Part shown: positions 208 to 53,367 of the stretch, piece by piece | Position numbering within the stretch: the first letter of the stretch is position 1 | Layout: the number at the start of each line of letters is the position of its first letter | NCBI GenBank assembly: GCA_002840785.1 | Contig: PHCH01000023.1 | Coordinates: 1-57,986, forward strand | Direction of reading: 5' to 3' | Length of the DNA: 57,986 nt | From: Betaproteobacteria bacterium HGW-Betaproteobacteria-4 | GTDB lineage: Bacteria; Pseudomonadota; Gammaproteobacteria; Burkholderiales; Rhodocyclaceae | Program-made: the position numbers and the translations under genes | Notes under the pieces: generated by a model | The model's input: the letters and a program-made list of their open reading frames with translations, nothing else | Told to the model about the DNA's origin: nothing | Database searches by the model: none

Positions 208-948
208 ATGCGCCCGGTTCGAATCGCCCTGTTCATCGCCGCGCTGGGGGCCGCCCAGGTCCAGGCCGGCGTATTTGACGACGAAGAAGCGCGTCGCCAG
301 GTTACCGATCTGCGGATCAAGACCGAGGCGCGATTCGACCAGCAGGCCAAGGCCCAGCTGGATCTGGCCAGCCAGATCCAGCGCCAGACCGATGAGATTG
401 CCCGCCTGCGCGGCCAGATCGAAACGCTCAATTACGAGCTGGAGACGGCCAAGAAGCGCCAGCAGGATTTCTACCTCGACCTCGACAGCCGCCTGCGCAA
501 GATTGAAACCGTGGGCAGCGCGACTGCTACGGTCAACCCGGAAAATGGGCAAAATTCGCCAACGGCCGCCGATCCGGCCCGGGAAACCCGCGAATACGAA
601 GCCGCCCTGAATCAGTTCAAGGCCGGCAAGTACAAAGAAGCCGCCGCCAGTTTCGACACCTACGTACAGACTTATCCGAACGCTGCGCTGGCCCCCAATG
701 CCCAGTACTGGCTCGGCAACGCCTGGTACGCCCAGCGCGACTGCAAGCGCGCCATCGAGGCGCAGAGTGTGGTCACCACCAAGTACGCCGACAGCGCCAA
801 GGCGCCCGATGCCTGGCTGGCCATCGCCACCTGCCAGCAGGAAATGGGCAATCCGAAAGGCGTCAAGCGCTCGCTCGAAACCGTCGTCGCCAAGTATCCG
901 GGCACCCCGGCTGCCGACACGGCCCGTGATCGCCTGAAGAAGAAGTAA
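208..948 (+). CDS. cpoB: CpoB (YbgF), Tol-Pal associated periplasmic TPR protein
   Basis: A 246-residue exported protein that coordinates outer-membrane constriction with septal peptidoglycan synthesis. It has a signal peptide ending near VQAG (residue 21), a coiled-coil trimerisation region at about residues 30-95 rich in Q, E, R and L, a low-complexity linker, and TPR repeats from about residue 130 to the end (EYEAALNQFKAGKYKEAA, then the YWLGNAWYAQ region). This is the normal CpoB layout and length. It starts 2 nt after pal, so the two are probably co-transcribed. The linker at 525-560 is encoded by one copy of the dispersed TGCTACGGTCAACC element, giving the residues ATVNPENG. Confidence 0.93.
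   Translation: MRPVRIALFIAALGAAQVQAGVFDDEEARRQVTDLRIKTEARFDQQAKAQLDLASQIQRQTDEIARLRGQIETLNYELETAKKRQQDFYLDLDSRLRKIETVGSATATVNPENGQNSPTAADPARETREYEAALNQFKAGKYKEAAASFDTYVQTYPNAALAPNAQYWLGNAWYAQRDCKRAIEAQSVVTTKYADSAKAPDAWLAIATCQQEMGNPKGVKRSLETVVAKYPGTPAADTARDRLKKK
525..560 (+). repeat. Dispersed element copy 1 (in cpoB)
   Basis: Core TGCTACGGTCAACC, then CGGAAAA and GCAAAATTCG. It lies in the cpoB linker between the coiled coil and the TPR domain, in the same orientation as the gene, read as ATVNPENG. Confidence 0.8.
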
Positions 949-1587
949 TTGGCTTTACGTCTCACTGAAATTTTCTACTCCCTGCAGGGCGAGGCCTCGC
1001 GCGCCGGCCTGCCGACCGTCTTCGTCCGCCTGACCGGCTGTCCCTTGCGTTGCACTTGGTGCGACACGACCTACAGTTTCACCGGCGGCGAACCGGCGAG
1101 CATCGAGTCGGTGCTGGCCGAAGTCGGCAAGTACCCGGCCCGCCAGGTCTGTGTGACCGGCGGCGAGCCGCTTTCACAGAAGGATTGCCTGCCGCTGCTG
1201 ACGGCCCTGTGCGATGCCGGTTACGACGTCTCGCTGGAAACCTCCGGGGCGCTCGATGTTGCCGGCGTCGATCCGCGCGTGGCACGCATCATGGACCTCA
1301 AGGCGCCGGATTCCGGCGAATCGGCGAAGAATCTGTGGGCCAATCTCGACGTCCTCAACCGGCGCGACGAGATCAAGATTGTCATCGCCTCGCGTGGCGA
1401 CTACGAGTGGGCGCGCGAAGTCCTGCGCGACCGCCAACTCGATGACCTGTGCCCGGTGCTGCTGTCGCCGGCCGGCGGCTTGATCGAGCCGCAGTCGCTG
1501 GCCGAGTGGATACTCGAAGATGGTCTCAACGTGCGTTTCCAGCTGCAGTTGCACAAGCTGCTTTGGGGTAACATGAAGGGAAAATAA
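949..1587 (+). CDS. queE: QueE, 7-carboxy-7-deazaguanine synthase
   Basis: Radical SAM enzyme that converts 6-carboxytetrahydropterin to 7-carboxy-7-deazaguanine in queuosine biosynthesis. The 212-residue protein has the QueE cluster motif CPLRCTWCDTTYSF at about residues 28-41 (CxxxCxxC form) and the VTGGEPL motif at about residue 70. The likely start is TTG at 949, directly after the cpoB stop (946-948). No nearby ATG would keep the N-terminal segment LRLTEIFYSLQGE, which the family conserves. Translation probably depends on coupling to cpoB. queC lies 5 kb away, with a PilZ gene and the liv operon in between. Confidence 0.93.
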   Translation: MALRLTEIFYSLQGEASRAGLPTVFVRLTGCPLRCTWCDTTYSFTGGEPASIESVLAEVGKYPARQVCVTGGEPLSQKDCLPLLTALCDAGYDVSLETSGALDVAGVDPRVARIMDLKAPDSGESAKNLWANLDVLNRRDEIKIVIASRGDYEWAREVLRDRQLDDLCPVLLSPAGGLIEPQSLAEWILEDGLNVRFQLQLHKLLWGNMKGK

Positions 1588-1996: not shown

Positions 1997-2703
<707 letters not shown>

Positions 2704-2707: not shown

Positions 2708-3459
2708 AGGTGATCTCCGAGGTAGGCGCGGCGCACTTCCGGGTTGGCGCGAACGGCTTCCGGCTCGCCGGTGCAGATCAGCTGGCCGTTGACCAGGACC
2801 GAAATGCGGTCGGCCAGCCGGAAAACGGCTGCCATGTCGTGTTCGACAAGGAGGATGGTGACGTGGCGGGCCAGGTGTTCGATGAGGTCGACCATGCGCG
2901 CCGACTCCTCCGGGCCGGCGCCGGCCATCGGTTCGTCAAGGAGCAGCATTCTCGGTTTGGTGGCCAGCGCCATGGCCAGCTCCAGCGCCCGTTGCTCGCC
3001 GTGGGCCAGGTTGCTGGCCAGCGTGGCGCCGCGCGAACCGAGGCCGACCTGGTCGAGAAAGTCGCGGGCCTCGTCGAACAGTCGTTGCTCGGCCCGGGCC
3101 GGCTTCCAGAAGCGGAAACTGCTGCCGGCATCGGTCCGCCCTTGTACGGCGAGCGCCACATTGTCGAGCGCCGAGAGGCCAAGGAAGACGTTGGTAATCT
3201 GGTAGGAGCGCGCCATGCCGGCGGCCACGCGCTGGTGCATGGACAGGGTGGTGACGTCGGCGCCGGCAAAATGCACGCTGCCCGAATCCGGTTGCAGGGC
3301 GCCGGAAACGTGATGGATGAAGGTTGTCTTGCCGGCGCCGTTGGGGCCGATCAGGGCGTGGACCTCGCCGGCCTCGACGCTGAAATTGACCGCTTTCAGC
3401 GCGTCGACCGCAGCAAAGCGGCGCGACAGGTTGCGGACTTCGAGCAGCGCTTCAGCCAT
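2704..3459 (-). CDS. livG: LivG, branched-chain amino acid ABC transporter ATPase
   Basis: A 251-residue ATPase subunit of the same HAAT transporter. Walker A is GPNGAGKTT at about residues 38-46. The LAHGEQRALELA segment replaces the usual LSGGQ signature, as is normal for LivG. Walker B reads MLLLDEPMAGAGPEE. I start at ATG 3459 (MAEALLEVRNLSRRF), because the frame upstream of it overlaps livM and looks non-coding. The two ATPases probably form a heterodimer on LivH and LivM. Confidence 0.92.
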
Positions 3460-4399
3460 GTTTTTTTCCGAACAAGGCGGCGACGCCCTTTGGCGCAAAG
3501 AGCACGACGCCAAGCAGGATCAGGCCGAGGGCAATGTGCCAGTGTGGCGTGAAGCCGACCAACACCTCTTCCAGGCAAAGCAGGATCAGCGCGCCGACCG
3601 CGCCGCCGTAGAGATAGCCGACGCCGCCGATGATGACCATGACGAGCAGCGTGCCGGACTGCGTCCAGACCAGCAGGTTGGGGCTGGCCAGCCCGGTCAG
3701 GTTGGCGAGCAGGGCGCCGGCCAGTCCGGCCAGGGCGCCACCGAGCGCGAAGCAGACCAGGCGATAACGGAAAACCGGGTAGCCGAGCGCTTCCATGCGC
3801 GTTTCGTTTTCGCGGATGGCCTGGATGACGCGGCCGAAGCGCGCATTGGCCAGCCGGCCGAGAAACAGCATTGCTACGGTCAACCCGGAAAAAGCCGCAA
3901 AATAGAAATGCGTGTCATCGGCCAGCGAAACGCCGGCCAGCGTCATCCGGCCAAGCAGCGGCAAACCGTCGTCACCGCCCCAACTGCGCGCCGAGACGAA
4001 CAGGTAGTAAGCCATCTGGGCGAAGGCCAGCGTGATCATGATGAAATAGACGCCGCGCGTGCGCAGGCTGATCGCCCCGACGGCCAGTGCAAACAGGCCG
4101 GCGACGGCCATGGCCAGCGGAAACGCGATGAGCGCCTCATTGATGCCAGCTTGCTGACAAATCGCCGCCGCGTAAGCGCCAATGCCAAAAAATGCTGCGT
4201 GGCCAAGCGAGAACATGCCGCCGAAACCGAGGACCAGATTCAGGCTGGAGGCGGCCAGCGCAAAGATCAGGACGCGCGTCGCGAAGCCGATGTAAAACTC
4301 CTGGCCGAAGGCAGTCAGCCCGAACGGCAAGGCGGCCAAAAGCAGGACGAGCGCAATGGCGACCGGCTTCTGATAGGGAGCGGCACGGTAGAAAGCCAT
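3452..4399 (-). CDS. livM: LivM, branched-chain amino acid ABC transporter permease
   Basis: A 315-residue permease with about eight to nine hydrophobic segments and the family motif SLNLVLGFGGMFSLGHAAFFGIGAY split across the first third. The start at 4399 (MAFYRAAPY) overlaps the livH stop, a translational coupling arrangement. The segment HFYFAAFSGLTVAML in the central part is encoded by an antisense copy of the dispersed element (3872-3909), so here the repeat supplies part of a membrane segment. Confidence 0.92.
   Translation of the reverse strand: MAFYRAAPYQKPVAIALVLLLAALPFGLTAFGQEFYIGFATRVLIFALAASSLNLVLGFGGMFSLGHAAFFGIGAYAAAICQQAGINEALIAFPLAMAVAGLFALAVGAISLRTRGVYFIMITLAFAQMAYYLFVSARSWGGDDGLPLLGRMTLAGVSLADDTHFYFAAFSGLTVAMLFLGRLANARFGRVIQAIRENETRMEALGYPVFRYRLVCFALGGALAGLAGALLANLTGLASPNLLVWTQSGTLLVMVIIGGVGYLYGGAVGALILLCLEEVLVGFTPHWHIALGLILLGVVLFAPKGVAALFGKKHG
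3872..3909 (+). repeat. Dispersed element copy 2 (in livM, antisense)
   Basis: Core TGCTACGGTCAACC, then CGGAAAAAG and GCAAAATAGAAAT. It lies inside livM in antisense orientation and encodes the residues FYFAAFSGLTVA on the gene strand. Confidence 0.85.
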
Positions 4400-5313
4400 C
4401 AGGCGCGCGCCGGGAAAAGGCCTTGCGGCTTGAAGAACAGGATGCCGGCCATGAGCAGGTAGATGAGGATAGAGGCCAGCGCCGGGCCGAGCGTTGAAGC
4501 AGCATCGGCCGGCAACAGCGCGCGCAGCAAGGTCGGCAACAGCGCGCGGCCGAGCGTATCGACCGAGCCGACGATCAGGCTGCCGACCAGCGCGCCGCGA
4601 ATCGAGCCGATGCCGCCGATGATGATGACGACGAAAGCCAGAATCAGCACGCTCTCGCCCATGCCGACCTGAACGGCGAGCAGCGGCCCGAGCAGCCCGC
4701 CGGCCAGTGCACAGAGCGCCGTGCCGAAAACGAAGACGGCGGTGAACAAAGCCTGGACGTTGATGCCGAGCGCTTCGGTCATTTCCCGATTCGCCGCCCC
4801 GGCCCGCACCCACATGCCGACCCGGCTCTTGGCGACGACCAGGTAAAGCAGCCCGGCCACGGCAAGGCCGAAGGCGATGATGACGAGCCGGTAGGCCGGG
4901 TAGAAAAAGTCGCCAATCTCAACCGGCCCGGCCAGCGCATCGGGTGGATTGAGCATGACCGGCTGGGCGCCCCAGATGACTCGTACCGCCTCGTTGGCGA
5001 TCAGGATCAGGGCGAAAGTGGCGAGCACCTGCGACAGGTGGTCGCGTTTGTAGAACTGGCGGAACAGCGACAGTTCAAGCAATAGCCCAAGCACGGCAGC
5101 CCCAGCCGCCCCGGCACCGAGGCCGATCCAGAAGGAATCCGCCGCCTGCGTGGCCGCCGCGACGAAGTAAGCGCCCACCATGTAGAGCGAACCATGGGCC
5201 AGATTAATGCAGTCCATGATGCCGAAGACGAGCGTCAGCCCGGCCGCCAGCAGGAAAAGCATGAGGCCGAACTGGAGGCCGTTGAGGGCTTGTTCGAGGA
5301 TGAGTTGGGTCAT
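4399..5313 (-). CDS. livH: LivH, branched-chain amino acid ABC transporter permease
   Basis: A 304-residue permease with about eight hydrophobic helices and the family segment [20 protein letters not shown] near the N-terminus, followed by [17 protein letters not shown]. The motif [14 protein letters not shown] at about residue 230 is the cytoplasmic ATPase-contact region of HAAT permeases. It follows livK by about 50 nt and overlaps livM at ATGA-type spacing. Confidence 0.92.
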
Positions 5314-5362
5314 GGGGGAAACCCCGTCATTCCCGCCGATGCGGGAACGACGGTTGAGGCGA

Positions 5363-6529: not shown

Positions 6530-6628
6530 TCGTATCTCCAGTCAGGGGGCGCAATGCGGCAAATTGTAGCGCAGGAACAAGCAGATACCGGGTCAAAGGC
6601 GGCTCAATTTCAGGTATATTCGCGACCC

Positions 6629-7306: not shown

Positions 7307-7308
7307 TC

Positions 7309-8412: not shown

Positions 8413-8432
8413 GCGACGCCGCTCAAGGGCAT

Positions 8433-8469
8433 TGCTGCGGTCAACCGGAAAAATAGGCCAAAATCGAAA
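8433..8469 (+). repeat. Dispersed element copy 3 (intergenic)
   Basis: Core TGCTGCGGTCAACC (one change from the others), then GGAAAAATAGG and CCAAAATCGAAA. It occupies most of the gap between the YeeE gene and the convergent small membrane gene, and is one of the fullest copies of the A-tract half. Confidence 0.85.
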
Positions 8470-14299: not shown

Positions 14300-14399
14300 G
14301 GTTGTCTCCGTGTGGAAAAGTTGCAGGCCGTAGTGTAGCCGCTTCCGCTTGCGGAAAAATTAAGCGGTGCCTGCGCTATTGTTCGTAAAAATCGAAGGT

Positions 14400-15683
14400 T
14401 TATCGATTTGAGAACAGGCTGGCGGCTGCATTTGGATTCGATGGGAAGTAAAAATGGACGTAGGAGGCGGTCAGCCGGCCTTGCCGGTAGATCGCTTCGC
14501 CGTCGCGGCCGTCGGCGGTTCTGGCGCGGACGAGGGGGGTGAGCGGCGTTTCGCTTTTCGAGTAATGGAAGGTGTGGCCGGCGAGGCGGCCTTCGGGCAG
14601 GTCGGCGAATTGCGTACCCAGCGCGGCGAGCCGTTTTTGCATGACCGAACGCCCCGGCAGCAGGCCGCCAAAGCGGTGGCTGGCGCCGGCCTTGTCGACC
14701 ACTTCCTCGAACAGGCTCATCATGCCGCCGCATTCGGCGAGCAGCGGTTTGCCGGCGGCGATGTGGTTTTTCAGGGCATGCCACAGCGCGGCATGCTGGC
14801 TCAGGGCGTCGGCGTGGAGTTCCGGGTAGCCGCCGGGCAGCCAGACGGCGTCGCAGTCGGGCAGAGGATCGCCGGCGACCGGCGAGAAGAAACGCAACTC
14901 GGCACCCTGCGCGCTCAGGGTTTCGAGATTGGCCGGGTAGATGAAGCCGTAGGCGGCATCGCGGGCGATGGCGATGCGCTGGCCGGCGAGCCAGGGTTCG
15001 ATGCGCGGCGCCGGGGCCGTTTCGAAATTCACCGGTTTTGGCAGGTCGACCGTAGCACTGGCGGCTAACCCATCGGCCAGGGCATCGAGGCGGGCTTCGA
15101 GGTCGGTGATTTCGGCCGCCTGGAGCAGGCCGAGGTGGCGTTCGGGCAGGCTGTCGGCGCTTTTGGGCAGGGCGCCGAACCAGCCCATGCCGGGAGGGAC
15201 GCTGTCGCGCAGCAATTGGGTGTGGCCTTGGCTGGCCGAACGATTGGCCAGCACGCCGGCAAAGGGCAGGTTGGGGCGATAGGTGGCGAGGCCATGGGCG
15301 ACGGCGCCGAAAGTCTGGGCCATCGCTCCGGCGTCGATCAGCGCCATGACCGGGATGGCGAAGCGCTCGGCGATGTCGGCGGCGGAAGGCTGGCCATCGA
15401 ACAGGCCCATGACGCCTTCGACGAGAATGAGGTCGGATTCCTCGGCGGCGCGGGCCAGTCGCCAGCGTGCATCGTCTTCGCCGCACATGCCGAGGTCGAG
15501 GTTCTGGCACGGTCGGCCGCTGGCGACCGCATGGATTTGCGGGTCGAGAAAATCCGGGCCGCATTTGAAGACGGTGACGCGCCGACCCTGGCGGGCGTGC
15601 AGCCGGGCCAGCGCGGCGGTGACGGTGGTCTTGCCCTGGCCGGAGGCGGGGGCGGCGATGAGGAGAGCGGGACAGGCGGGCAT
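14400..15683 (-). CDS. cobB: CobB/CbiA, cobyrinate a,c-diamide synthase
   Basis: A 427-residue glutamine-dependent amidase that amidates the a and c side chains of (hydrogeno)cobyrinate. It has the P-loop APASGQGKTT at residues 11-20 and a C-terminal class I glutamine amidotransferase domain with catalytic Cys318 in LLAECGGMMS. It is the last gene of the riboswitch-led corrinoid operon, starting 9 nt after the CbiZ-nitrilase gene. The segment ATVDLPKPVNFE is encoded by a copy of the dispersed element (15021-15057). The window holds no other corrin-ring synthesis genes. Confidence 0.92.
   Translation of the reverse strand: MPACPALLIAAPASGQGKTTVTAALARLHARQGRRVTVFKCGPDFLDPQIHAVASGRPCQNLDLGMCGEDDARWRLARAAEESDLILVEGVMGLFDGQPSAADIAERFAIPVMALIDAGAMAQTFGAVAHGLATYRPNLPFAGVLANRSASQGHTQLLRDSVPPGMGWFGALPKSADSLPERHLGLLQAAEITDLEARLDALADGLAASATVDLPKPVNFETAPAPRIEPWLAGQRIAIARDAAYGFIYPANLETLSAQGAELRFFSPVAGDPLPDCDAVWLPGGYPELHADALSQHAALWHALKNHIAAGKPLLAECGGMMSLFEEVVDKAGASHRFGGLLPGRSVMQKRLAALGTQFADLPEGRLAGHTFHYSKSETPLTPLVRARTADGRDGEAIYRQGRLTASYVHFYFPSNPNAAASLFSNR
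15021..15057 (-). repeat. Dispersed element copy 4 (in cobB)
   Basis: Core TGCTACGGTCGACC on the minus strand, with a diverged A-tract half (TGCCAAAACCGG, then AATTTCGAAA). It is in the same orientation as cobB and read as ATVDLPKPVNFE. Confidence 0.7.
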
Positions 15684-15692
15684 TCTTGTTCC

Positions 15693-17896: not shown

Positions 17897-17919
17897 ATTG
17901 ATAGGCTCGGAAAAGGCAT

Positions 17920-17956
17920 TGCTACGGTCAACCGGAAAAAATGCCCAAAATTGAAA
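17920..17956 (+). repeat. Dispersed element copy 5 (intergenic, btuD-cobO)
   Basis: Core TGCTACGGTCAACC, then GGAAAAAATG and CCCAAAATTGAAA. One of the best copies. It fills the 64-nt gap between btuD and cobO, opposite in orientation to the operon. Confidence 0.88.
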
Positions 17957-22682: not shown

Positions 22683-22703
22683 CCCTCCAAATTTCCCGAA
22701 CGC

Positions 22704-23171
22704 ATGCAATATTGGCTGATGAAGTCGGAGCCGGACGAGGTTTCAATTGACGACCTCGAAGCTGCCACGGACCAACGCGTGCCGTGGTTTGGCGTGCGCA
22801 ACTACCAGGCGCGCAATTTCATGCGCGACGCGATGCAGGTCGGCGATCTCGCCTTCTTTTATCACTCCAGTTGCGCCGAGCCGGGCATTGCCGGCATCTG
22901 CGAGGTGTGTTCCGAGCCTTACCCGGACGAAACCCAGTTTGCTACGGTCAACCGGTATTTTGACCCAAAATCGAAACCGGAAAATCCGCGCTGGTGGCTG
23001 CGTGACGTCCGTTTCGTCGAGAAGACGCGCCTGGTTACGTTGTCCGAACTGCGTATCCATCCCGAACTTGCTAACATGCGCCTCCTTGCCCGCGGCAACC
23101 GGCTGTCGATCATGCCGGTCACGGCCGAAGAATGGGCCTTCATCAACCGTCTCATGGCAGATAACTCGTGA
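22704..23171 (+). CDS. EVE (PUA-like) domain protein
   Basis: A 155-residue single EVE domain (MQYWLMKSEPDE, then WFGVRNYQARNFMRD, GDLAFFYHS and NPRWWLRDVRFVEKT). EVE domains resemble PUA and YTH folds and are thought to bind modified bases in RNA or DNA. ATG 22704 gives the family N-terminus; the longer frame would run through the 6S RNA. Residues FATVNRYFDPKSK come from a copy of the dispersed element, which replaces the usual sequence here without lengthening the protein as I remember the family. Confidence 0.92.
   Translation: MQYWLMKSEPDEVSIDDLEAATDQRVPWFGVRNYQARNFMRDAMQVGDLAFFYHSSCAEPGIAGICEVCSEPYPDETQFATVNRYFDPKSKPENPRWWLRDVRFVEKTRLVTLSELRIHPELANMRLLARGNRLSIMPVTAEEWAFINRLMADNS
22940..22976 (+). 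repeat. Dispersed element copy 6 (in the EVE gene)
   Basis: Core TGCTACGGTCAACC, then GGTATTTTGA (first A-tract altered) and CCCAAAATCGAAA. Sense orientation, read as ATVNRYFDPKSKPE. Confidence 0.85.
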
Positions 23172-27863: not shown

Positions 27864-29479
27864 ATGAACGCACCTCTCCCGAGTAACTGGGACACGCTGC
27901 GCCAGAGCCGTGGTCGCCGCCTTGAGCGGGCGGCGAGCCTCGGTTTTGGCCAGGAAATTCCGGTCGACCGTATCATCGACCTGCTCGAAGCCGTCATCCA
28001 GCCGGGCGACCGCGTCTGTCTGGAAGGCAACAACCAGAAGCAGGCCGATTTCCTCTCCGAGTCCCTGGCTGACTGCAGCCCGGAACGCATCAATCACCTC
28101 AGTATGGTCCAGTCAGTCCTGGCTCTCCCGAGCCATGTGGACCTTTTCGAGGTCCGCAGGGCGCCCGGCTGGCCAAGCTGGTCCAGGAACAGCGCATCGA
28201 GATCGGAGCGATTCATACCTATCTCGAACTGTTCGGCCGCTATTTCATGGACCTGACGCCGAATGTGGCGCTGATCGCGGCGCAGGCGGCTGATGCCGAG
28301 GGCAACCTCTATCTTGGGCCGAATACCGAAGACACGCCGGCGATTGTCGAGGCGACCGCCTTCAAGGGCGGCATTGTCATCGCCCAGGTCAATGAGCGGC
28401 TGGAAAAGCTGCCGCGCGTCGACGTGCCGGCCGATTGGGTCGATTTCACCGTGCTCGCGCCGAAGCCGAACTACATCGAGCCCTTGTTCACCCGCGATCC
28501 GGCGCAGATTACCGAGGTCCAGGTGCTGATGGCGATGATGGCGATCAAGGGCATCTACGCCGAGTACGGCGTGACGCGCCTGAACCACGGCATCGGCTTT
28601 GACACCGCAGCCATCGAGCTGTTGCTGCCGACCTACGCCGCCGACCTTGGCCTGAAGGGCAAGATCTGCACGCACTGGGCGCTGAATCCGCATCCGACGC
28701 TGATCCCGGCCATCGAGTCCGGCTTCGTCGAATCGGTGCACTGCTTCGGTTCGGAAGTCGGTATGGATCCTTACATCTCGGCCCGTTCCGACGTCTTCTT
28801 CACCGGTGCCGACGGCAGCATGCGTTCCAACCGGGCCTTCAGCCAGACGGCCGGCCTCTACGCCTGCGACATGTTCATCGGCTCGACCTTGCAGATGGAC
28901 ATGGCCGGCAACAGTTCGACGGCGACGCTGGGCCGCATCACCGGCTTCGGCGGCGCGCCGAACATGGGTTCCGACCCGCACGGCCGGCGTCACGCCAGTC
29001 CGGCCTGGCTCAAGGCCGGGCGCGAAGCCTACGGGCCGAACGCCATCCGCGGCCGCAAGCTGGTGGTGCAGATGGTCGAAACCTTCCGCGAGCACATGGC
29101 GCCGGTTTTCGTCGAGGAACTCGACGCCTGGAAACTGCAGAAGTCGATGGGCGCCGAACTGCCGCCGATCATGATCTATGGCGACGACGTCAGCCACATC
29201 GTGACCGAGGAAGGCATCGCCAACCTGCTGCTCTGCCGGACGCCAGAAGAGCGCGAGCAGGCGATCCGCGGCGTCGCCGGCTTCACGCCGGTCGGTATGG
29301 CACGCGACAAGGCGATGGTCGAAAACCTGCGCGACCGCGGCATCGTCCGCCGTCCCGAAGACCTCGGCATCGACCCGCGGCTAGCCACGCGCGACCTGCT
29401 CGCCGCCCGTTCCGTCAAGGATCTGGTGCGCTGGTCGGGCGGCCTGTACGCGCCCCCTTCACGCTTCCGCAATTGGTGA
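27864..29479 (+). pseudogene. mdcA: mdcA, malonate decarboxylase alpha subunit, frameshifted
   Basis: MdcA transfers malonyl to the acyl carrier subunit MdcC. The N-terminal frame runs from ATG 27864 to about 28150 (ending HVDLFE), and the rest continues in another frame from 28151 (GPQGARLAKL onward) to TGA 29477-29479. Known MdcA proteins have about 12 more residues between these points (in the style of HGIASRLDFSFS). A loss of 37 nt explains both the gap and the shift, and restores a normal 550-residue protein. Everything else is conserved, including NHGIGFDTAAIELLLPTY. It is either a recent inactivating deletion or an assembly fault. Confidence 0.85.
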
Positions 29480-29799: not shown

Positions 29800-30698
29800 T
29801 CGCGTCGCTTGCTGCACGCCACAGCTGGTTCGAGGCGACTGCCCGGGCTCGCGTCGCCGGCTTGCTCGATCCCGGCAGTTTCAGCGAAATCCTGCCGCCG
29901 GCCGAATCCAGCCCCAGCCCGCATCTCGCCCTGCTCGACCTGCCCGGTGCCTTTGATGACGGCGTGGTCGTTTGCTACGGTCAACTGGAAAAAAAGCCGA
30001 TTTTTGCAATCGCTCAAGAGGGTCAGTTCATGGGCGGCTCGGTTGGTGAAATCCACGGCGCCAAGATCGTCGGGATGCTGCGCCGGGCAGTGAAGGAAAA
30101 GCCGGCCGCCGTGCTCTTTCTCATCGATTCCGGCGGCGTTCGGCTGCATGAGGCCAATGCCGGTCTGATCGCCATTTCGGAAATCATGCGCGCCGTGCTC
30201 GATGTGCGTGCGGCTGGCGTCCCGGTCATCGCGCTGGTCGGCGGCAGTTGTGGTGCTTTCGGCGGCATGGGCATCGTCGCCAAGCTGTGTTCGGCCATCC
30301 TCATTTCCGAAGAAGGCCGACTCGCGCTGTCCGGCCCGGAGGTCATCGAAACGGTGGCCGGCGTCGAGGAATTCGACTCGAAGGATCGGGCGCTGGTCTG
30401 GCGCGTCACCGGCGGCAAGCATCGTTACCTGATGGGCGATTGCGCCATGCTGGTCGACGATGACATCGCCGCCTTCCGCAGCGGTGCTGCGGAATTCCTC
30501 GCCGGCTGGAGCGAACCCGCCCCGAGCGTCGCCCATCTGCGGGCCGGCCAGCAGGCGCTGGAAAATCGTCTGGCCGCCTACGCCAGCTACCGCGACGGCC
30601 TGCAAGTCTGGGCCGCGCTCGGTATAGCCGAGCCGGAAAGCGTGCCGTTGCTCGACCGCGACGCGCTGGTCGCTTTGAAGGAAGGATTGCCGACATGA
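29796..30698 (+). CDS. mdcD: MdcD, malonate decarboxylase beta subunit
   Basis: A 300-residue carboxyltransferase-fold subunit that, with MdcE, decarboxylates malonyl-ACP. Family marks are QEGQFMGGSVGEIHGAK (about residue 70) and LVGGSCGAFGGMGIVAKL (about 148), the oxyanion-hole glycines. The residues CYGQLEKKPIFAI just before the first motif come from a copy of the dispersed element in a different reading frame from most other copies. Overlaps mdcE by 4 nt. Confidence 0.93.
   Translation: MIASLAARHSWFEATARARVAGLLDPGSFSEILPPAESSPSPHLALLDLPGAFDDGVVVCYGQLEKKPIFAIAQEGQFMGGSVGEIHGAKIVGMLRRAVKEKPAAVLFLIDSGGVRLHEANAGLIAISEIMRAVLDVRAAGVPVIALVGGSCGAFGGMGIVAKLCSAILISEEGRLALSGPEVIETVAGVEEFDSKDRALVWRVTGGKHRYLMGDCAMLVDDDIAAFRSGAAEFLAGWSEPAPSVAHLRAGQQALENRLAAYASYRDGLQVWAALGIAEPESVPLLDRDALVALKEGLPT
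29973..30009 (+). repeat. Dispersed element copy 7 (in mdcD)
   Basis: Core TGCTACGGTCAACT (last base changed), then GGAAAAAAAGCCG and TTTTTGCAA (second A-tract lost). Sense orientation, read as CYGQLEKKPIFA. Confidence 0.78.
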
Positions 30699-32977: not shown

Positions 32978-33892
32978 ATGCGCCTCGCCCTTCTCTTCAG
33001 CGGTCAGGGTGGGCAAACCGTTGGCCACTGGCAGCAGGTGCAGGCCGGCGTCGCTGGCGAATTGCGTGAGGCGCTGGCGCAGGTTCTGCCCGACATCGCG
33101 GAGCCGAATGCTACGGTCAACCCGGAAAAACTGGCAAAAAACAAATTTGCCCAGCCGCTGATCTTCGCCCAGCAGATGCTGCTCTGGAGCAGCCTGCAAA
33201 GTCGCCTGCCGCGGCCGATCTGCGCCGCCGGCTATTCGCTAGGCGAAATGGCGGCGTGCAGCGCAGCCGGCGCTTTTACGGCGGTCGAGGGCGTTGCCCT
33301 GTGTGCCGAGCGCGCCGCGGCGATGGACGGCGCGGCGGTCGGCGAGCACGGCATGCTCGCCGTGCTCGGGCTGGACGATGCGCTGGTGGAAAAACTGGCC
33401 AGCGAGGCCGGGCTGGCCGTGGCCATTCGCAATGCACCGCGTCATCTGGTCGTGGCCGGACCGCGGGCCGGCATCGCGACCGTGGCCGGCAAGTTCGAGG
33501 CCGCCGGGGCGAGCCGGCTGGTCCATCTGGCCGTGCGCACGCCCTCGCATACACCACTGCTGGTCAAGGCTGCGGTCGACTTCAAAAAGAGCCTCGATTT
33601 GCTGCCCGAGCGCCGCCTGGCCTTCCCCGTACTCAGCGCCATCGATGCGACGGCAGTACGCACCGCCCGCCCGGCGCTAGCCGCGCTGGCCCGCCAGATC
33701 TGCACTCCGCTCGACTGGGCGGCCTGCCTGCAGGCGGTGCGCGAGATGCAGCCCGATGCGGTGCTCGAAATCGGCCCCGGCAATGCGCTTGCCCGGCTGT
33801 TCGGCGAACTCGCCCCGGAGATTCCGGTGCGAGCCTGCGATGATTTTCGCAGCCTCGACGGCATTGTTCGCTGGCTCGAGGCCGGCCACTGA
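32978..33892 (+). CDS. mdcH: MdcH, malonyl-CoA:ACP transacylase of malonate decarboxylase
   Basis: A 304-residue FabD-like enzyme that charges MdcC with malonyl to start the cycle. It has the GQGGQ loop (residues 9-13), the nucleophile Ser87 in AGYSLGEMA, and a late HTPLL segment with the catalytic His. A copy of the dispersed element encodes ATVNPEKLAKNKF at residues 45-57, in a surface region just before the AQPLIFAQQ helix. The protein keeps normal length. Confidence 0.92.
   Translation: MRLALLFSGQGGQTVGHWQQVQAGVAGELREALAQVLPDIAEPNATVNPEKLAKNKFAQPLIFAQQMLLWSSLQSRLPRPICAAGYSLGEMAACSAAGAFTAVEGVALCAERAAAMDGAAVGEHGMLAVLGLDDALVEKLASEAGLAVAIRNAPRHLVVAGPRAGIATVAGKFEAAGASRLVHLAVRTPSHTPLLVKAAVDFKKSLDLLPERRLAFPVLSAIDATAVRTARPALAALARQICTPLDWAACLQAVREMQPDAVLEIGPGNALARLFGELAPEIPVRACDDFRSLDGIVRWLEAGH
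33109..33146 (+). repeat. Dispersed element copy 8 (in mdcH)
   Basis: Core TGCTACGGTCAACC, then CGGAAAAACTGG and CAAAAAACAAA. Sense orientation, read as ATVNPEKLAKNK. Confidence 0.85.
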
Positions 33893-34753: not shown

Positions 34754-35539
34754 TCAGCGCGCCTTGAACGCCGGTTTGCGTTTTTCCAGAAAGGCAGCCA
34801 GTCCTTCCCGGTAATCCTCAGTGTCGAGGAAGGCGAACGAGGCGGCCTTTTCCTCGTCGCTTAACGGTTTTCCATCGAGCAGCCGGCTTATCCACTGCTT
34901 GTGCCAGCCGGCGACCAGTGGCGCCCCGGCGCAGATGCGTTTGGCCGTGGCGTAGGCTTCGCTTTCGGTTTCGTCATCGGCAACGACGCGCGTCACCAGC
35001 CCTTTGGCGTAGGCCTCGGCGGAAGTCAGGATGCGGCCTTCAAGCAGGATTTCCTTCATGACCGCCGGCCCGGCCAGGCGCAGCAGACCTTCCATTTCGC
35101 CGGGGTACATCGAAAATCCCAGACGATTGATCGGTGCGCCAAAACGGGCTGACTCGCCACAGATCCGGAAGTCGCAGACGCCGGCAATTTCCAGCCCGCC
35201 GCCAATGCAGGCGCCCTGAATCAGCGCCACGGTCGGATGCGGGCAGTTGTCGATGGCCTGCAGGGCCAAAGCGACCTGGCCGTGATAGTGCAGCGCCTGA
35301 TCGAGCGTTGCCCGGTCCGTGACGAATTCTTCCAGGTCGCCACCGGCTGCAAACGCCTCGTTACCGGTACCACGGATGACGACGCAGCGAATGCTACGGT
35401 CAACCGACAAATTGGCCATATTTTCGGCCAGTTGCCGCCACATGGCGAGATCGATGGCATTGAGTTTGCCGGGATTGTCGAGAACCAGGGTGGCGACTTC
35501 ACCCTGGACAGAGAGGTTGATCTGGGCCATCGCAGGCAT
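34754..35539 (-). CDS. Enoyl-CoA hydratase/isomerase family protein
   Basis: A 261-residue crotonase-fold protein with the oxyanion-hole segments GNEAFAAGGDLEEF (about residue 60) and IQGACIGGGLEIAGVCDFRI (about 109). The active-site acid pattern is not the textbook Glu-Glu hydratase pair that I can confirm, so hydratase, isomerase or decarboxylase are all possible. Start ATG 35539 or 35530 (MAQINLSV); neither has a clear RBS. Residues NLSVDRSIR are encoded by an antisense copy of the dispersed element. Confidence 0.85.
   Translation of the reverse strand: MPAMAQINLSVQGEVATLVLDNPGKLNAIDLAMWRQLAENMANLSVDRSIRCVVIRGTGNEAFAAGGDLEEFVTDRATLDQALHYHGQVALALQAIDNCPHPTVALIQGACIGGGLEIAGVCDFRICGESARFGAPINRLGFSMYPGEMEGLLRLAGPAVMKEILLEGRILTSAEAYAKGLVTRVVADDETESEAYATAKRICAGAPLVAGWHKQWISRLLDGKPLSDEEKAASFAFLDTEDYREGLAAFLEKRKPAFKAR
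35392..35428 (+). repeat. Dispersed element copy 9 (in the enoyl-CoA hydratase gene, antisense)
   Basis: Core TGCTACGGTCAACC, then GACAAATTGGCC and ATATTTTCGG (A-tract half weak). It lies antisense in the gene and encodes NLSVDRSIR on the gene strand. Confidence 0.78.
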
Positions 35540-47083: not shown

Positions 47084-47120
47084 TTTGATTTTCGGCCGTT
47101 TTTTCCGGTCGACCGTAGCA
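47084..47120 (-). repeat. Dispersed element copy 10 (intergenic, after pccA)
   Basis: On the minus strand, core TGCTACGGTCGACC, then GGAAAAAACGG and CCGAAAATCAAAT. It begins right at the pccA stop codon and precedes the bidirectional terminator. Its central GGTCGACC is a perfect palindrome. Confidence 0.88.
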
Positions 47121-47123
47121 TTC

Positions 47124-47150
47124 AAGGCCCGCCAAGCAGCGGGCCTTATT
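47124..47150. terminator. Bidirectional terminator between pccA and the unknown gene
   Basis: AAGGCCCGC and GCGGGCCTT form a 9-bp stem around CAAGCA (47124-47147), followed by ATTTATT on the plus strand. It serves two convergent genes. Confidence 0.75.
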
Positions 47151-48685
47151 TATTGCTTCATCACGGCGTAGCGGACGAAATCGACGCCACGTTCGAGCAC
47201 TTCGGTCGGCATCAGGTGGCTGAGCGAGGTTCCCTCCAGCGTCACCCCGTTGTGCAGGCGGATGCCGGCAATGCTGGGGACGATCAGCGAGCAGAGGTTG
47301 CCATCGCGCAGCAGGAAAACCGGCACCACCGGCGCCGTCTGGCCCGGCGCGGCCGGGCGATTGAGGCGGCCGGCTTCGACACGCTCTTCATACCAGCGCA
47401 GATCGGCGGCCAGGGCACCGCCCGGGATGCTTTGCAGTCCGATCATGACGCCGAGGCGGGGCACGCCGAGCGAGGACGAGGCGATCAGGCAGGGCGACTG
47501 GCGGCGGGCGCCCTTGCGGTCGGCCGGGCGGATCGCCTTGCCATCGACGAGCAGCCAGTTTTCACTCGGCACGTTGAGTTTCTTGACGGCGGTTGGCATC
47601 GTCGACACGCGGTCGAAGCCGAACAGGGCGGTGCGCTGGTGCGCCAGCGATGCGCTGCTGGCCTCCAGCGAGCCGCTTTGGACGAGCATTTCGCCGGTAA
47701 AGGCCGCGTAGGCGAATTCGGCCCCGAAGGCCAGCTCGATTTCGCCGATTTCGGTGCTTTGCTGCCGGCTGTGCGATTCCAGGCTGGTCTCGATGTCGTG
47801 CAGCAGGCGGATGCAGGCCGCCGGCGAAAGTTCGCGCCCGAGCTTGAGGGATTCGGGCGATTCGCCGGCCTTGAGGGCGGCGATTCTCTGCGCGATCTTG
47901 CGGCTGACCCGCGGTACTTCAAGCCAGCGCGGAATGCCTTCCGGCAAGGGGCCGCCGAAGAGCGGACCGAGATCGACCGAATGCCCACGCGGGTCGTCGT
48001 CCGGCATGCTCTGGAAGCCGGCCAGTTCGCGCCAGCGGCTCAGCGCCCGGTTGGCGACGGTGAGCTGGGCAGCCGACAGGCGATAGGGGTCAATCAGGCG
48101 CAGCATGAAGGCCCAGGCCAGATGGCCGGCGATGCTGGTCTCGACAAGATGCCGGAAATCCGGATCGGGCAAGGCCTGGCGCAGCAGGCCATCGCGTTCG
48201 GCCTGGTCGAGGATGGCGATGAGGAGCTGATCGAGTTGGCTCGGGCATTCGCGGGCGGCCAGGAAATGACAGTATTGCGCCATGCGGAAGGCGCAGGCGG
48301 CGCGGTGCAGCGGTTTCGTCTTGTCGGCCGGCGAAAAGTGGGGCGCCAGGCGCAGATAGGCCGTTCCGAGACGCAGCCACAGGCGCTGGGCGACCTCGAA
48401 GGCGCGCTGGTCGTCGTCGAGCATGGGGAGCGCTTTGCGGGTGTATTGCGGCTCGATGATCTCCTGGCCGGGTACGGCAGCCGTCCGCATCAGGTCGAGC
48501 AGTTCGATGGCGACGGGCGGCGGCAGCGAGGAGGCTTCGATGCCTTCGATCTGCAGACTGATGGCGGCCAGCATGTGCATCGGCTGGGTTTGTGGCTGGC
48601 TGGCCAGCCAGGCTTTGGCCGAGGCCAGGTCGTTGAAGGCCAGGGCTATGTTCTTGCGCGGTTCGGGCAGTGTTAACCAGTGCAT
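47150..48685 (-). CDS. Conserved-looking protein of unknown function, 511 residues
   Basis: A 511-residue soluble protein without signal peptide or membrane helices. No family recognised with confidence. It has a helical, leucine/alanine-rich N-terminal half (about residues 1-280). The mixed C-terminal half, about 300-511, reads TEIGEIELAFGAEFAYAAF and LIASSSLGVPRLGVMIGL. The last part has the look of a small beta-barrel such as PilZ, but the RxxxR and DxSxxG signatures are not visible. It is transcribed alone, divergent from the small gene at 48715. Confidence 0.75.
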   Translation of the reverse strand: MHWLTLPEPRKNIALAFNDLASAKAWLASQPQTQPMHMLAAISLQIEGIEASSLPPPVAIELLDLMRTAAVPGQEIIEPQYTRKALPMLDDDQRAFEVAQRLWLRLGTAYLRLAPHFSPADKTKPLHRAACAFRMAQYCHFLAARECPSQLDQLLIAILDQAERDGLLRQALPDPDFRHLVETSIAGHLAWAFMLRLIDPYRLSAAQLTVANRALSRWRELAGFQSMPDDDPRGHSVDLGPLFGGPLPEGIPRWLEVPRVSRKIAQRIAALKAGESPESLKLGRELSPAACIRLLHDIETSLESHSRQQSTEIGEIELAFGAEFAYAAFTGEMLVQSGSLEASSASLAHQRTALFGFDRVSTMPTAVKKLNVPSENWLLVDGKAIRPADRKGARRQSPCLIASSSLGVPRLGVMIGLQSIPGGALAADLRWYEERVEAGRLNRPAAPGQTAPVVPVFLLRDGNLCSLIVPSIAGIRLHNGVTLEGTSLSHLMPTEVLERGVDFVRYAVMKQ

Positions 48686-49467: not shown

Positions 49468-50310
49468 CTACTTGGCGGCTCTCATTTTGGCCAGGCCGCT
49501 TTGCAGCATCTGGTCGATTTCCGAACCCGGCTCGACCTGCGGCAGCAGGGCTTCCCAGTAGGCGATGCCCTTTTTGTTCTGACCCGCCTCCATGGCCGCG
49601 GCGCCGGCCAGGAACAGGCTGTGGCCGTGATTGGGATTGATCTTGAGGGCCTGCTCGATGAGCTGGATGGCCTTGCCGGTGATGCCCTTGCCGTTGGCCA
49701 TGGCGATCGTTTCGGCGTAGCTGGCCAGCTGGTCGGGATCGTCGCCGATGCCCTTCTCGGCATGGCTGTAGGCGTCGACAGCTTCGGCGTAGCGGCCCAT
49801 CGATTTGTACGAGCGGGCGAGCATGAGCCAGCCCGGGATGTTGTCGGGGTCGGCCTTGAGTTTTTCGGCCAGGCTGGCAACCATCTCGTTGATCTTTTCC
49901 GGGGTCATCTCCTGCGGCGCGGCGGTTTGTACCGGGTCGAGCGCGGTCGGATTGCCGAGGATGCCGTAGCCGAGCAGGCCGAAAATGGGCAGCAGGACGA
50001 GGATGGCGATGGCCATCTTGCGGCTCGGGCCGTGCGTGGCCTGGGCGGCCAGCGCGGCGTCGGCCGGCTCGACTTCTTCGAGCAGGCGGCGCTGCAGCTC
50101 GTGCCTGGCTTGTTCGAAATCGGCTTCGGCCAGCGAGCCGTCCGATTTTTCACGGACCAGTTCGGCCAGCTGGTCGCGGAAGATGGCGACGTTGGCTTCC
50201 TTGCGGTCGGCCTGGCTTTTCGGGGCGCGCAGGCCGAGCCAGAGCGGGGGCAGGATGAAGGCGGATACGACCACGATCAGGAGGACGGCAAAAACGGAAA
50301 ACAGGTTCAT
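49468..50310 (-). CDS. ccmI: CcmI, cytochrome c maturation TPR protein
   Basis: A 280-residue apocytochrome chaperone of the heme ligation complex. TM1 is at about 4-24, a cytoplasmic coiled part follows, and TM2 at about 95-114. The periplasmic TPR region is at about 130-270 (PGWLMLARSYKSMGRYAEAV, then ALKINPNHGHSLFLAGAAAM). It binds the C-terminus of apocytochromes. Last gene of the ccm operon, overlapping ccmH by 4 nt. Confidence 0.9.
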   Translation of the reverse strand: MNLFSVFAVLLIVVVSAFILPPLWLGLRAPKSQADRKEANVAIFRDQLAELVREKSDGSLAEADFEQARHELQRRLLEEVEPADAALAAQATHGPSRKMAIAILVLLPIFGLLGYGILGNPTALDPVQTAAPQEMTPEKINEMVASLAEKLKADPDNIPGWLMLARSYKSMGRYAEAVDAYSHAEKGIGDDPDQLASYAETIAMANGKGITGKAIQLIEQALKINPNHGHSLFLAGAAAMEAGQNKKGIAYWEALLPQVEPGSEIDQMLQSGLAKMRAAK

Positions 50311-50795
50311 TTCGGTTCGATTTCCTTGAGCAGCGCATCGGCGCGGCTGGTCTCGTCAGCCGACAGCGGCTGGTCCTCGGCGATGACGCGGGTGGCGCGC
50401 CGGCGCAAGTAGCGCAGCAGGATGAAGAGGCCGAGCAGCATGAGGGCGACCGGGCCGCCCCAGAGGAGCAGCGTGATGGCCTTGAGCGGCGGGCGATAGA
50501 GGACAAAATCGCCGTAGCGGACGACCATGAAATCGACGATTTCCTGGTCGGTCTTGCCATCCTTGATCATGGTCCGGACTTCGCGGCGCAGGTCCTGGGC
50601 CAGCTCGGCATTGGAGTCGGCGATGGTCTGGTTCTGGCAGACCAGGCAGCGCAGTTCTTCGGAAAGCTTTTGCAGGCGCTTTTCGGCCACCGGGTCGGCG
50701 GCCGTGGCGGCTTCGGTGGCGGCATCGGCGAATGCTACGGTCGACCCGAAAAAAGAGCCAAAAATGAAAAGGGCAATCAGGATGCGGCGCTTCAT
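50307..50795 (-). CDS. ccmH: CcmH, cytochrome c maturation thiol-disulfide protein
   Basis: A 162-residue protein with a signal peptide cleaved near AFADA (about residue 23), the reducing motif LRCLVCQ (Cys50, Cys53) and a transmembrane helix at about residues 108-128. It reduces the apocytochrome CxxCH thiols. I start at ATG 50795. The signal peptide FIFGSFFGSTVAFA is encoded almost wholly by an antisense copy of the dispersed element, a striking use of the repeat. Confidence 0.92.
   Translation of the reverse strand: MKRRILIALFIFGSFFGSTVAFADAATEAATAADPVAEKRLQKLSEELRCLVCQNQTIADSNAELAQDLRREVRTMIKDGKTDQEIVDFMVVRYGDFVLYRPPLKAITLLLWGGPVALMLLGLFILLRYLRRRATRVIAEDQPLSADETSRADALLKEIEPK
50733..50769 (+). 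repeat. Dispersed element copy 11 (in ccmH, antisense)
   Basis: Core TGCTACGGTCGACC, then CGAAAAAAGAG and CCAAAAATGAAA. It lies antisense over the signal-peptide codons of ccmH. Confidence 0.88.
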
Positions 50796-51376
50796 TTGTT
50801 CAGCTCGGCAAGCAGCGGCATGATCTTCTGGGCCAGGACATCGGGCGAAATCGGCCCGGTGTGCTTCATGCGGATAATGCCGGCCTTGTCGATGACGTAG
50901 GTTTCCGGGACGCCATAGACGCCGTAGTCGATGCCGACGCGGCCGTCGATATCCATGACCGTCAGCGTGTACGGGTTGCCGTGCTGGGCCAGCCACTGCT
51001 CGGCGCGCTGGAAGGCCAGCTTCTTTTCTTCATCGGCCGGCATCTTGCTCATGTCGAAATTGCCGTCGCCGCGCACTTCCTTGTAATTGAGTCCGACCAA
51101 CGGGACGTTGGCGTTCTTCGAGAATTCGACGAGCACCGGGTGCTCGGCGCGGCACGAAACGCACCACGAGGCCCAGACGTTGAACAACCAGACCTTGCCC
51201 TGCATGTCCTTGGGGCCGAGCGTCTTGTCCGGCGTGGCCAGGATGCTCAGGTTGAAGGCCGGGGCCGGCTTGCCGACCAGAGGCGACGGGACGTCACGCG
51301 GGTTGAGGCCGAGACCGACGGCGAGCAGGGCGACGAGGGCGGCAAAGGCGCCGAGGATCCAGAAATAACGGTTCAT
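50792..51376 (-). CDS. ccmG: CcmG/DsbE, thiol-disulfide oxidoreductase
   Basis: A 194-residue membrane-anchored thioredoxin-fold protein, with an N-terminal anchor helix (about 5-24) and the active site WCVSC at Cys72 and Cys75. The GVYGVPETYVID segment is the cis-proline region. ATG 51376 overlaps ccmF by 4 nt. It passes reductant to CcmH or the apocytochrome. Confidence 0.93.
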   Translation of the reverse strand: MNRYFWILGAFAALVALLAVGLGLNPRDVPSPLVGKPAPAFNLSILATPDKTLGPKDMQGKVWLFNVWASWCVSCRAEHPVLVEFSKNANVPLVGLNYKEVRGDGNFDMSKMPADEEKKLAFQRAEQWLAQHGNPYTLTVMDIDGRVGIDYGVYGVPETYVIDKAGIIRMKHTGPISPDVLAQKIMPLLAELNK

Positions 51377-53367
51377 GCGTGTTGGCTTCCAGCCGGGGTT
51401 TGAACAGCGGACGAGGCGCGGGATTTGGCGCGGTAACGGCGGTCGAGCATGGCCAGCAGGCCGCCCAGCGCCATCAGCACGCAACCGCCCCAGATCCAGT
51501 CGACGAAGGGTTTGTAGTAGACACGGACGGCCCATTCGCCCTCCGGCCGCTCGCGGTCGATCGGCTCGCCGAGCGAGACATAGACGTCGCGCAGGATGCC
51601 GGCGTCGATGGCAGCTTCGGTCATCGGCATGCCGGACGACGCGTAGTTGCGCTTTTCCGGTTTCATTTTCAGGCGAAATTTCCCGTCGACCGTAAGATCG
51701 AAGTCGCCCTGCGCCGCCACGTAGTTCGGCCCCTGCACTTCGCGGACGCCATTGAACACGAAATGGTAGCCGGCCACATCGACGCTATCGCCGGGCGCCA
51801 TCTTGACGTCCTTTTCATCCTGGAAGCTGCTGACCATGGTCACGCCGACAACAAAAACCGCGATGCCGAAGTGGGCGACGCACATGCCGACGAAGCTGCG
51901 CGGCTGCTTGAGCGCCGCGCTCAGGAAGGACTGGCCGGCGCGCGTGTTCTGGACGCGTTCGATGAAGGCGGCCAGTGTCGTGAAAGTAACCCAGGCGGCG
52001 AGCAGGATGCCGAGTGCAGTCAGCGCCGTCCATTGGCCATAAAGCAGCGGCAAGGCGATGGCGACGACAACGGCGGCGAGCAGCGCCCAGCGCACGGCGC
52101 GGGTGATTTCCGTCAGCGAGGCGTCCTTCCAGCGGGCGAAAGGCGCGACGCCCATGAGGAAGAGCACCGGCGCCATGACCGGCACGAAGACGGCATTGAA
52201 ATACGGTGGCCCGACCGAAATCTTGCCAACGCCGAGCGCGTCGATAAGCAGCGGGTAGAGCGTGCCGAGCAGCACGGTGGCGCAGGCGACAACCAGCAGC
52301 ACGTTATTGGTGAGCAGGAAGGATTCGCGCGACACCAGGCCGAAGCGGCCGCCCAGGCCAACCTTGGGCGCCCGCCAGGCGAACAGGGCGAGCGAGGTGC
52401 CGATGACGGCAACGAGGAAGATCAGGATGAAAATGCCGCGCCGTGGATCGGTGGCGAAGGCATGGACCGAGGTCAGCACGCCGGAGCGAACGAGGAAGGT
52501 GCCGAGCAAGGACAGCGAGAACGCCGAGATCGCCAGCAGCACCGTCCAGTTCTTGAAGCTGCCGCGTTTTTCGGTAACGGCCAGCGAATGGATCAGCGCC
52601 GTGCCGACCAGCCAGGGCATGAACGAGGCGTTTTCGACTGGGTCCCAGAACCACCAGCCGCCCCAGCCCAGTTCGTAATAAGCCCACCACGAACCCATGG
52701 CGATGCCGAGGGTCAGGAAGCACCAGGCGGCCATCGTCCACGGCCGCGACCAGCGCGCCCAGGCGGCGTCCAACTGGCCGGAAAGCAGGGCCGCGATAGC
52801 GAAGGCGAAGGCGACCGAGAAACCGACGTAGCCCATGTAGAGCAGCGGCGGGTGAATGACCAGCCCGAAATCCTGCAACAGCGGATTCAGGTCGCGCCCT
52901 TCGGCCGCAGCCGGCAACAGGCGCTCGAACGGGCTGGAAGTGATCAGGATGAAGAGCAGGAAGCCGAAGGCAACCAGACCGAGGGTGCCGAGGACACGGG
53001 CCACCATCGTTTCCGGCAATTGCTTCGACAGCATGGCGACGCCAAAGGCCCACCAGGTCAGCATCAGCATCCACAGCAGCAGCGAACCCTCATGGCCGCC
53101 CCACACCGCGGCGACGCGATATTGCAGCGGCAGCAGCGAATTGGAGTGCTGGGCGACATAGACCACGGAGAAGTCGTTGGTCACGAAGGCCTGCGTCAGG
53201 CAGGCGAAGGAGAAAGTGACGAGCAGCGCCATGGCTGAAGCCGCCGGACGGGCGACGGCAACCCAGGCCATGCGGTTCTGATGGGCGCCGATCAGCGGCA
53301 GGGTGCCGAGGATCAGGGCGACCAGCGCGGCGAGGATCAGGGCGAAATGACCGAGTTCGGGAATCAT
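51373..53367 (-). CDS. ccmF: CcmF, cytochrome c heme lyase
   Basis: A 664-residue polytopic protein that ligates heme to apocytochrome c. The tryptophan-rich WWFWDPVENAS motif is at residues 238-248. A large periplasmic loop near the C-terminus follows VGVTMVSSFQDEKDVKMAPG. The sequence LTVDGKFRLKMKPE in that loop is encoded by a diverged copy of the dispersed element. Between ccmE and ccmG, in the usual order. Confidence 0.94.
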   Translation of the reverse strand: MIPELGHFALILAALVALILGTLPLIGAHQNRMAWVAVARPAASAMALLVTFSFACLTQAFVTNDFSVVYVAQHSNSLLPLQYRVAAVWGGHEGSLLLWMLMLTWWAFGVAMLSKQLPETMVARVLGTLGLVAFGFLLFILITSSPFERLLPAAAEGRDLNPLLQDFGLVIHPPLLYMGYVGFSVAFAFAIAALLSGQLDAAWARWSRPWTMAAWCFLTLGIAMGSWWAYYELGWGGWWFWDPVENASFMPWLVGTALIHSLAVTEKRGSFKNWTVLLAISAFSLSLLGTFLVRSGVLTSVHAFATDPRRGIFILIFLVAVIGTSLALFAWRAPKVGLGGRFGLVSRESFLLTNNVLLVVACATVLLGTLYPLLIDALGVGKISVGPPYFNAVFVPVMAPVLFLMGVAPFARWKDASLTEITRAVRWALLAAVVVAIALPLLYGQWTALTALGILLAAWVTFTTLAAFIERVQNTRAGQSFLSAALKQPRSFVGMCVAHFGIAVFVVGVTMVSSFQDEKDVKMAPGDSVDVAGYHFVFNGVREVQGPNYVAAQGDFDLTVDGKFRLKMKPEKRNYASSGMPMTEAAIDAGILRDVYVSLGEPIDRERPEGEWAVRVYYKPFVDWIWGGCVLMALGGLLAMLDRRYRAKSRASSAVQTPAGSQHA
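51661..51697 (-). repeat. Dispersed element copy 12 (in ccmF, diverged)
   Basis: On the minus strand TCTTACGGTCGACG, then GGAAATTTCG and GAAAATGAAA. It matches 11 of 14 core positions and keeps both A-tracts. Weakest of the set; could be chance. Confidence 0.45.

Follow-up and report, generated by a model that had tools for sequence, protein, structure and literature searches.

What is the short sequence that recurs throughout the 57,986-nucleotide contig PHCH01000023.1 of Betaproteobacteria bacterium HGW-Betaproteobacteria-4 (assembly GCA_002840785.1; the whole contig is hereafter called the window)? An initial annotation of the window described a dispersed element of about 37 bp and gave it no function. 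We find hundreds of near-identical copies of this element, on both strands, with an asymmetric core and lineage-specific dialects, in one genus among the genomes sampled. Judged from its sequence and distribution, the element is very probably a DNA uptake sequence that serves natural transformation, that is, a putative "self" tag for kin DNA. The evidence thus points to a known class of element with an apparently undescribed sequence.

The 12-mer GCTACGGTCRAC occurs exactly ten times in the window (at 526, 3873, 15045-15056 on the minus strand, 17921, 22941, 29974, 33110, 35393, 47108-47119 on the minus strand, and 50734), whereas 100 dinucleotide-preserving shuffles gave a mean of 0.00 and a maximum of 0. 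The ten exact copies reported earlier were therefore all recovered, and the case first made for a repeated element proves to have been understated. The remaining two reported copies carry one mismatch (8433; GCTGCGGTCAAC) and two mismatches (51697, minus strand; CTTACGGTCGAC). When up to two mismatches were allowed, 33 matches were found in the window, versus 7.97 expected (sd 2.75). The genome from which the window derives (4.07 Mb, 174 contigs) contains 476 occurrences of the 12-mer, both strands counted. In the same genome, GCTACGGTCRACC was found 344 times, 182 on one strand and 162 on the other, versus once for the reversed pattern; reversed patterns or reversed sequence were used as controls together with the dinucleotide shuffles of the window. 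The genome-wide count, proposed earlier as a check on chance, is thus far above its control.

To describe the anatomy of the element, we used a 453-kb sample consisting of the window and 20 further stretches, in which words of the element topped the list of over-represented 10-mers against a fourth-order background. With the G of GCTAC numbered as position 0, a profile of 60 exact-core copies, informative for the flanks only because the core positions were fixed by copy selection, was A/T-rich at 15-20 and 26-31 and A-rich at 33-35. Conservation extends from about -4 to +36 and reads A T T, GCTACGGTC(A/G)AC, C g g, a tract, a free base, GGCC, a tract, g and AAA. Only the single free base separates the first A/T tract from GGCC, and the tracts are 11 bp apart. 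The full element, about 39 bp long, runs from ATTGCTACGGTC(A/G)ACCGG through an A/T tract, GGCC and another such tract 11 bp further on to gAAA. The tail that the initial annotation placed after the core is real, but it is better described as two A/T tracts, in an element slightly longer than the 37 bp first given.

Perfect copies of the core TGCTACGGTCRACC were more common than singly mismatched ones (49 and 26 places, respectively, with another 37 at two mismatches; the reversed sequence gave 0, 0 and 12). Seven or more of the 8 tract positions were A or T in 47 of the 49 perfect copies, in 24 of the 26 with one mismatch and in 23 of the 37 with two. An excess of perfect over singly mismatched copies is described for both the Pasteurellaceae uptake signal sequence (USS) and the Neisseriaceae DNA uptake sequence (DUS) (PMC1626085). 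A relaxed scan identified 104 copies in 393 kb, including weaker window copies at 3402 (minus strand), 18662, 27962 (minus strand) and 33568. A loose pattern, CGGTCRAC plus the second A/T tract, gave 723 matches in the 4.07 Mb, and the two counts correspond to one copy per 4-6 kb.

We then counted the loose pattern across 76 genomes of the genus, with a reversed control of 7-37 per genome. Copy numbers were bimodal: 39 genomes had 324-1491 matches and 28 had 12-57, with 9 at 75-144. The genus includes Azonexus hydrophilus DSM 23864 (G402), itself an intermediate genome with 75 loose matches (control, 22). This record agrees with genus member G045 in all four counts and has a match at the equivalent position. 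Azonexus belongs to Rhodocyclales, in agreement with the setting proposed earlier. This genus, formerly Dechloromonas, includes phosphorus-removing wastewater bacteria (PMC12455942). The intermediate genomes at 75-144 matches were G005, G007, G045, G046, G047, G048, G390, G395 and G400. Some intermediate genomes keep perfect cores at shared orthologous sites, and their numbers look like the outcome of decay once the driving process had been lost.

Outside the genus, the element was essentially absent from what was sampled. Core plus both tracts gave 0 copies in 40 genomes that represent 40 further families of the order, and core plus looser tracts gave at most 2 in each of 285 sampled genomes from other genera of the family. 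The loosest pattern reached at most 33 in each of those 285 (maximum in G222; control, 23), and a few of them exceeded their own control, e.g., G124 with 31 versus 9. GCTRCGGTCRAC was present in none of the best 80 of at least 594 CcmF-matching stretches, few of which came from close relatives. In a viral collection, TGCTACGGTCAACC matched 114 stretches, with one match each in the 80 listed; these counts, for which no expectation was computed, are at most compatible with an absence of the element from phages. The comparison with related genomes that was suggested at the outset thus yielded an element restricted to one genus among the genomes sampled.

Within the genus, lineage dialects differ around the common CGGTCRAC. 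Some other lineages use GCTGCGGTCRAC (e.g., 441 in G051, 408 in G014 and 385 in G030), and CACGGTCGAC is the top 10-mer of G244. The dialects also vary in layout, with two clear tracts in G000, G052, G043 and G034. In a CcmF tree (200 residues, 33 rows), which is weakly resolved and whose aligned stretch contains the ccmF element site, the copy-rich label requires 6 changes (5-6 over bootstraps), with 2 of them forced by well-supported branches. This suggests repeated loss or gain of the copy-rich state.

How the copies arise could be seen at two orthologous sites, in ccmH (50731-50769) and in ccmF (51661-51699), across one set of 30 genus genomes (18 copy-rich and 8 copy-poor, with 4 intermediate genomes excluded). 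Seventeen of the 18 copy-rich genomes and none of the 8 copy-poor ones had a perfect CGGTCRAC at the ccmH site; the ccmH count takes the best match anywhere in the gene, and the alignment puts those matches at the same place. Similarly, the ccmF site carried it in 15 of the 18 copy-rich genomes and in none of the 8 copy-poor ones (Fisher p 1e-4, only indicative because the compared genomes are related and p-values overstate their independence). Among the excluded intermediates, a perfect core was present in G005 at ccmH, in G048 at ccmF and in G007 at both. The base preceding CGGTC seems often to fit the dialect of the genome, with exceptions that include G057 at ccmH and G043 at ccmF.

At the ccmF site, all rows were of equal length, including 8 of 8 copy-poor genomes, and differed by substitutions; some tract bases result from the use of synonymous codons, for example AAATTT instead of AAGTTC. 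The ccmH site had equal length in 5 of 8 copy-poor genomes, and the other 3 were gapped by about 12 to 21 bases, less than the element; such gaps occur in some copy-rich rows too. At these two sites, then, copies arise by substitution in place and not by insertion. Numerous dispersed near-identical copies would also be expected of a mobile element or MITE-like repeat spread by insertion. However, the substitution-only differences at ccmF and the short gaps at ccmH speak against insertion, as does the conservation profile, which drops outside about -4 to +36 while the tract positions within it vary between A and T. We consider this explanation extremely improbable; the earlier view that the repeat is not a transposon agrees with the lack of any visible insertion at either site.

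The placement of the copies bears on the remaining explanations. Copies in the window include the following.

523..561, plus strand: perfect core, inside the gene at 208-948 (plus strand) encoding a TolA-binding trimerisation domain and TPR repeats
3379..3417, minus strand: weak copy (GCTGCGGTCGACG) from the relaxed scan, 7 of 8 tract positions A/T
3870..3908, plus strand: perfect core, antisense in the branched-chain amino acid permease open reading frame (ORF) at 3452-4813 (minus strand)
8431..8469, plus strand: one core mismatch (GCTGCGG), between the ORFs at 7240-8412 and 8707-10674
15021..15059, minus strand: perfect core, in the ORF at 14296-15894 (minus strand)
17918..17956, plus strand: near full consensus, between the BtuR/CobO gene at 17306-17896 (minus strand) and the ABC transporter gene at 17961-19244 (minus strand)
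22938..22976, plus strand: perfect core, in the ORF at 22747-23418 (plus strand), which the ORF at 22599-23171 overlaps
27939..27977, minus strand: weak copy (GATACGGTCGACC) from the relaxed scan, 8 of 8 tract positions A/T
29971..30009, plus strand: exact 12-mer, in the carboxyl transferase gene at 29796-30698 (plus strand)
33107..33145, plus strand: perfect core, in the acyl transferase gene at 32978-33892 (plus strand)
35390..35428, plus strand: perfect core, antisense in the enoyl-CoA hydratase gene at 34754-35539 (minus strand)
47084..47122, minus strand: perfect core, between the ORFs at 45071-47083 (plus strand) and 47150-48685 (minus strand)
50731..50769, plus strand: perfect core, antisense in the CcmH ORF at 50307-50996 (minus strand); the ccmH site compared in 30 genus genomes
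51661..51699, minus strand: weaker copy (CTTACGGTCGAC), sense in ccmF at 51373-53367 (minus strand), with tract bases that are partly synonymous-codon choices

A simple custom codon-usage gene finder called 353 genes (82% coding). By these calls, 34 of the 73 copies of GCTRCGGTCRAC were intergenic versus 12.8 expected, a 2.7-fold enrichment between genes. The other 39 lay within genes, 21 in sense and 18 in antisense orientation, in 5 strand and frame classes. Of the 21 sense copies, 15 have the same frame, as would be expected if the element echoed a single frequent protein motif under codon bias, the explanation that the initial annotation had named as a possible refutation. A single motif is nevertheless excluded by this placement, because copies are intergenic and lie in several strands and frames, and the core is absent from both orthologous sites in the copy-poor congeners. 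The chance that the repeat is such an echo is practically negligible.

Intergenic enrichment, and the position of 9 of the 34 intergenic copies between convergent genes, would also suit a regulatory or terminator element. However, more than half of the copies lie inside genes, and only 3 of the 34 fall between divergent genes, although such intervals account for 12.3 of the 66 kb of intergenic DNA. As for a restriction-modification site, we know of no restriction site that resembles a 39-bp element with phased A/T tracts. A regulatory, terminator or restriction-modification role is very improbable.

Alternatively, selection on chromosome structure could maintain the copies as sites bound by a protein that organises or segregates the chromosome, in the way of matS, KOPS, Chi or nucleoid-occlusion sites. 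Their genome-wide spread and near-random spacing (CV 0.93 over 54 gaps) are in line with this possibility, as is the near-palindrome CGGTCRACCG contained in the core and the next bases. By contrast, no polarity was found: copies were on the same strand in 163 of 303 within-contig pairs in the sample of the window's genome, and none was detected in 36 listed places of G030 or in 27 of G039, the latter not of the main dialect of its genome. In addition, dialects vary between congeners, 28 of the 76 genus genomes have loose-match counts of only 12-57 (controls, 7-37), and perfect copies exceed single mismatches. We therefore regard binding by a chromosome protein as unlikely.

The reading as a DNA uptake sequence is preferred because strong consensus, mutational origin, dialects and many genic copies match uptake sequences as described elsewhere (PMC1626085, PMC3630211). 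Like the element, the Pasteurellaceae USS (Hin type, AAGTGCGGT; Apl type, ACAAGCGGT) has an asymmetric core followed by two 3' A/T tracts, as well as a strong consensus, subclade types and a mutational origin (PMC1626085). CGGT is common to the element and USS, and CGGTCAA to the element and the printed USS-Apl fragment; the tracts are spaced by 11 bp, about a helical turn, in the window's genome and are centred 12 apart in the Hin type (PMC1626085). The element differs from USS in its core, which is GCTRCGGTCRAC and not ANNNGCGGT, and in its first tract, which begins some 7 bases beyond CGGT and in some dialects is weak, whereas that of USS lies just 3' of the core. It also differs in its betaproteobacterial host of about 62% GC, its lower density and the lack of inverted pairs among the copies seen. 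Inverted pairs that double as terminators are common in DNA uptake sequences and do not define them.

The Neisseriaceae DUS (GCCGTCTGAA and dialects; receptor, ComP) is likewise betaproteobacterial, genome-wide and divided into dialects (PMC3630211). DUS is a different 10-mer, with no flanking tracts (PMC1626085), whereas the top 10-mers here are those of the element and tracts are present. As a further likeness to Neisseriaceae, a ComP_DUS-family minor pilin is encoded here, although homologues also occur in element-free genomes. In the window's genome, this Pfam-assigned pilin is encoded on contig C106, directly after a PilY1 ORF. A ComEC domain was found in 71 of 76 genus genomes, the window's genome included, and in all 51 that were at least 90% complete and no more than 5% contaminated, in a search that also matches E. 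coli and others. Short or split ComEC matches occurred in the copy-poor G018, G035 and G044, but also in the copy-rich G002, G008 and G019. A pairwise comparison of 30 ComP_DUS matches with the pilin of the window's genome gave no visible link to element presence. We rejected the presence of ComP_DUS or ComEC as a marker of the receptor, and assign no receptor, because neither tracks the element. For USS, the minor pilin ComN has been predicted as receptor (PMC12616744).

Several observations weigh against a DNA uptake sequence. The density is below the approximately one copy per kb of Haemophilus and Neisseria (PMC1626085), and inverted pairs of the terminator-like kind were not seen, the sole close pair among the 73 copies being on one strand. 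The first tract is weak in G030, and only the second is clear in G051 (9 copies sampled). ComP_DUS is found in 89 of 100 relatives, many of them without the element, ComEC presence does not track the element among the genus genomes, and the genomes compared at the two orthologous sites are, as noted, related.

If the element is an uptake sequence, it would act as a short, orientation-specific tag recognised by a receptor on a type IV pilus-based DNA uptake machine, and cells would preferentially import DNA of their own kind through this recognition. A pilin-like receptor may bind the core, and the A/T tracts may help the duplex to bend or melt during entry. Imported fragments with good copies would recombine more often, and biased uptake would therefore push copies to a strong consensus. 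Dialects would partly isolate lineages, and loss of the receptor or of competence would let copies decay. We lean towards the view that this genus of environmental betaproteobacteria independently evolved a third grammar for the uptake of self DNA, one that reached by convergence the same physical plan as the Pasteurellaceae USS (a CGGT-containing core and phased A/T tracts) and underwent a dialect split and, apparently, several losses.

Some further features were observed in these genomes. A 699-aa ORF in the window (5207-7306) has QueC as its last third, and its first ~475 residues match no Pfam family. Another single ORF (15693-17306) combines CbiZ (adenosylcobinamide amidohydrolase) with a carbon-nitrogen hydrolase domain and lies beside BtuR/CobO. 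In the single-contig genome G030, no two-tract copy was among the matches listed for C1 2138734-2708653 (~570 kb), which may reflect chance or an acquired region. In G244 (C1 100001-200000; L246-L250), a second set of over-represented words, TACTTTCTTT, TTTGGCTACT and AAAAGAAAGT, is unlike the element. At ~11445-11670 of C12 in G000 (L031), the words TCTCAGCCTT and TCTCGGACTT form a short array, with many of them spaced by 18 or 36 bases.

Strong uptake preference for short motifs has been described in two families (PMC7811141), and a 2026 terminator survey places uptake sequences in those two families (PMC13020248). Among the papers listed by capped searches of the open-licence PubMed Central literature, preprints being outside this scope, we found no published description of an uptake sequence in Rhodocyclales, and no description of the element sequence, in keeping with the initial statement that no named family matches it. 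A paper listed as mentioning both uptake sequences and Azonexus deals with the gonococcal pilus (PMC7593972), and three listed as containing a string of the core concern, to judge by their titles, a fungus, a human syndrome and a plant. Ideas on the origin of uptake sequences and on the role of A/T tracts rest on two cases because only those two families are described. A third case, with dialects and with low-copy and copy-poor members in one genus, would allow comparative tests of the origin, drift and loss of uptake specificity. If the element is an uptake sequence, dialect change, uptake barriers and decay would be traceable among close relatives, and natural transformation is predicted in these organisms.

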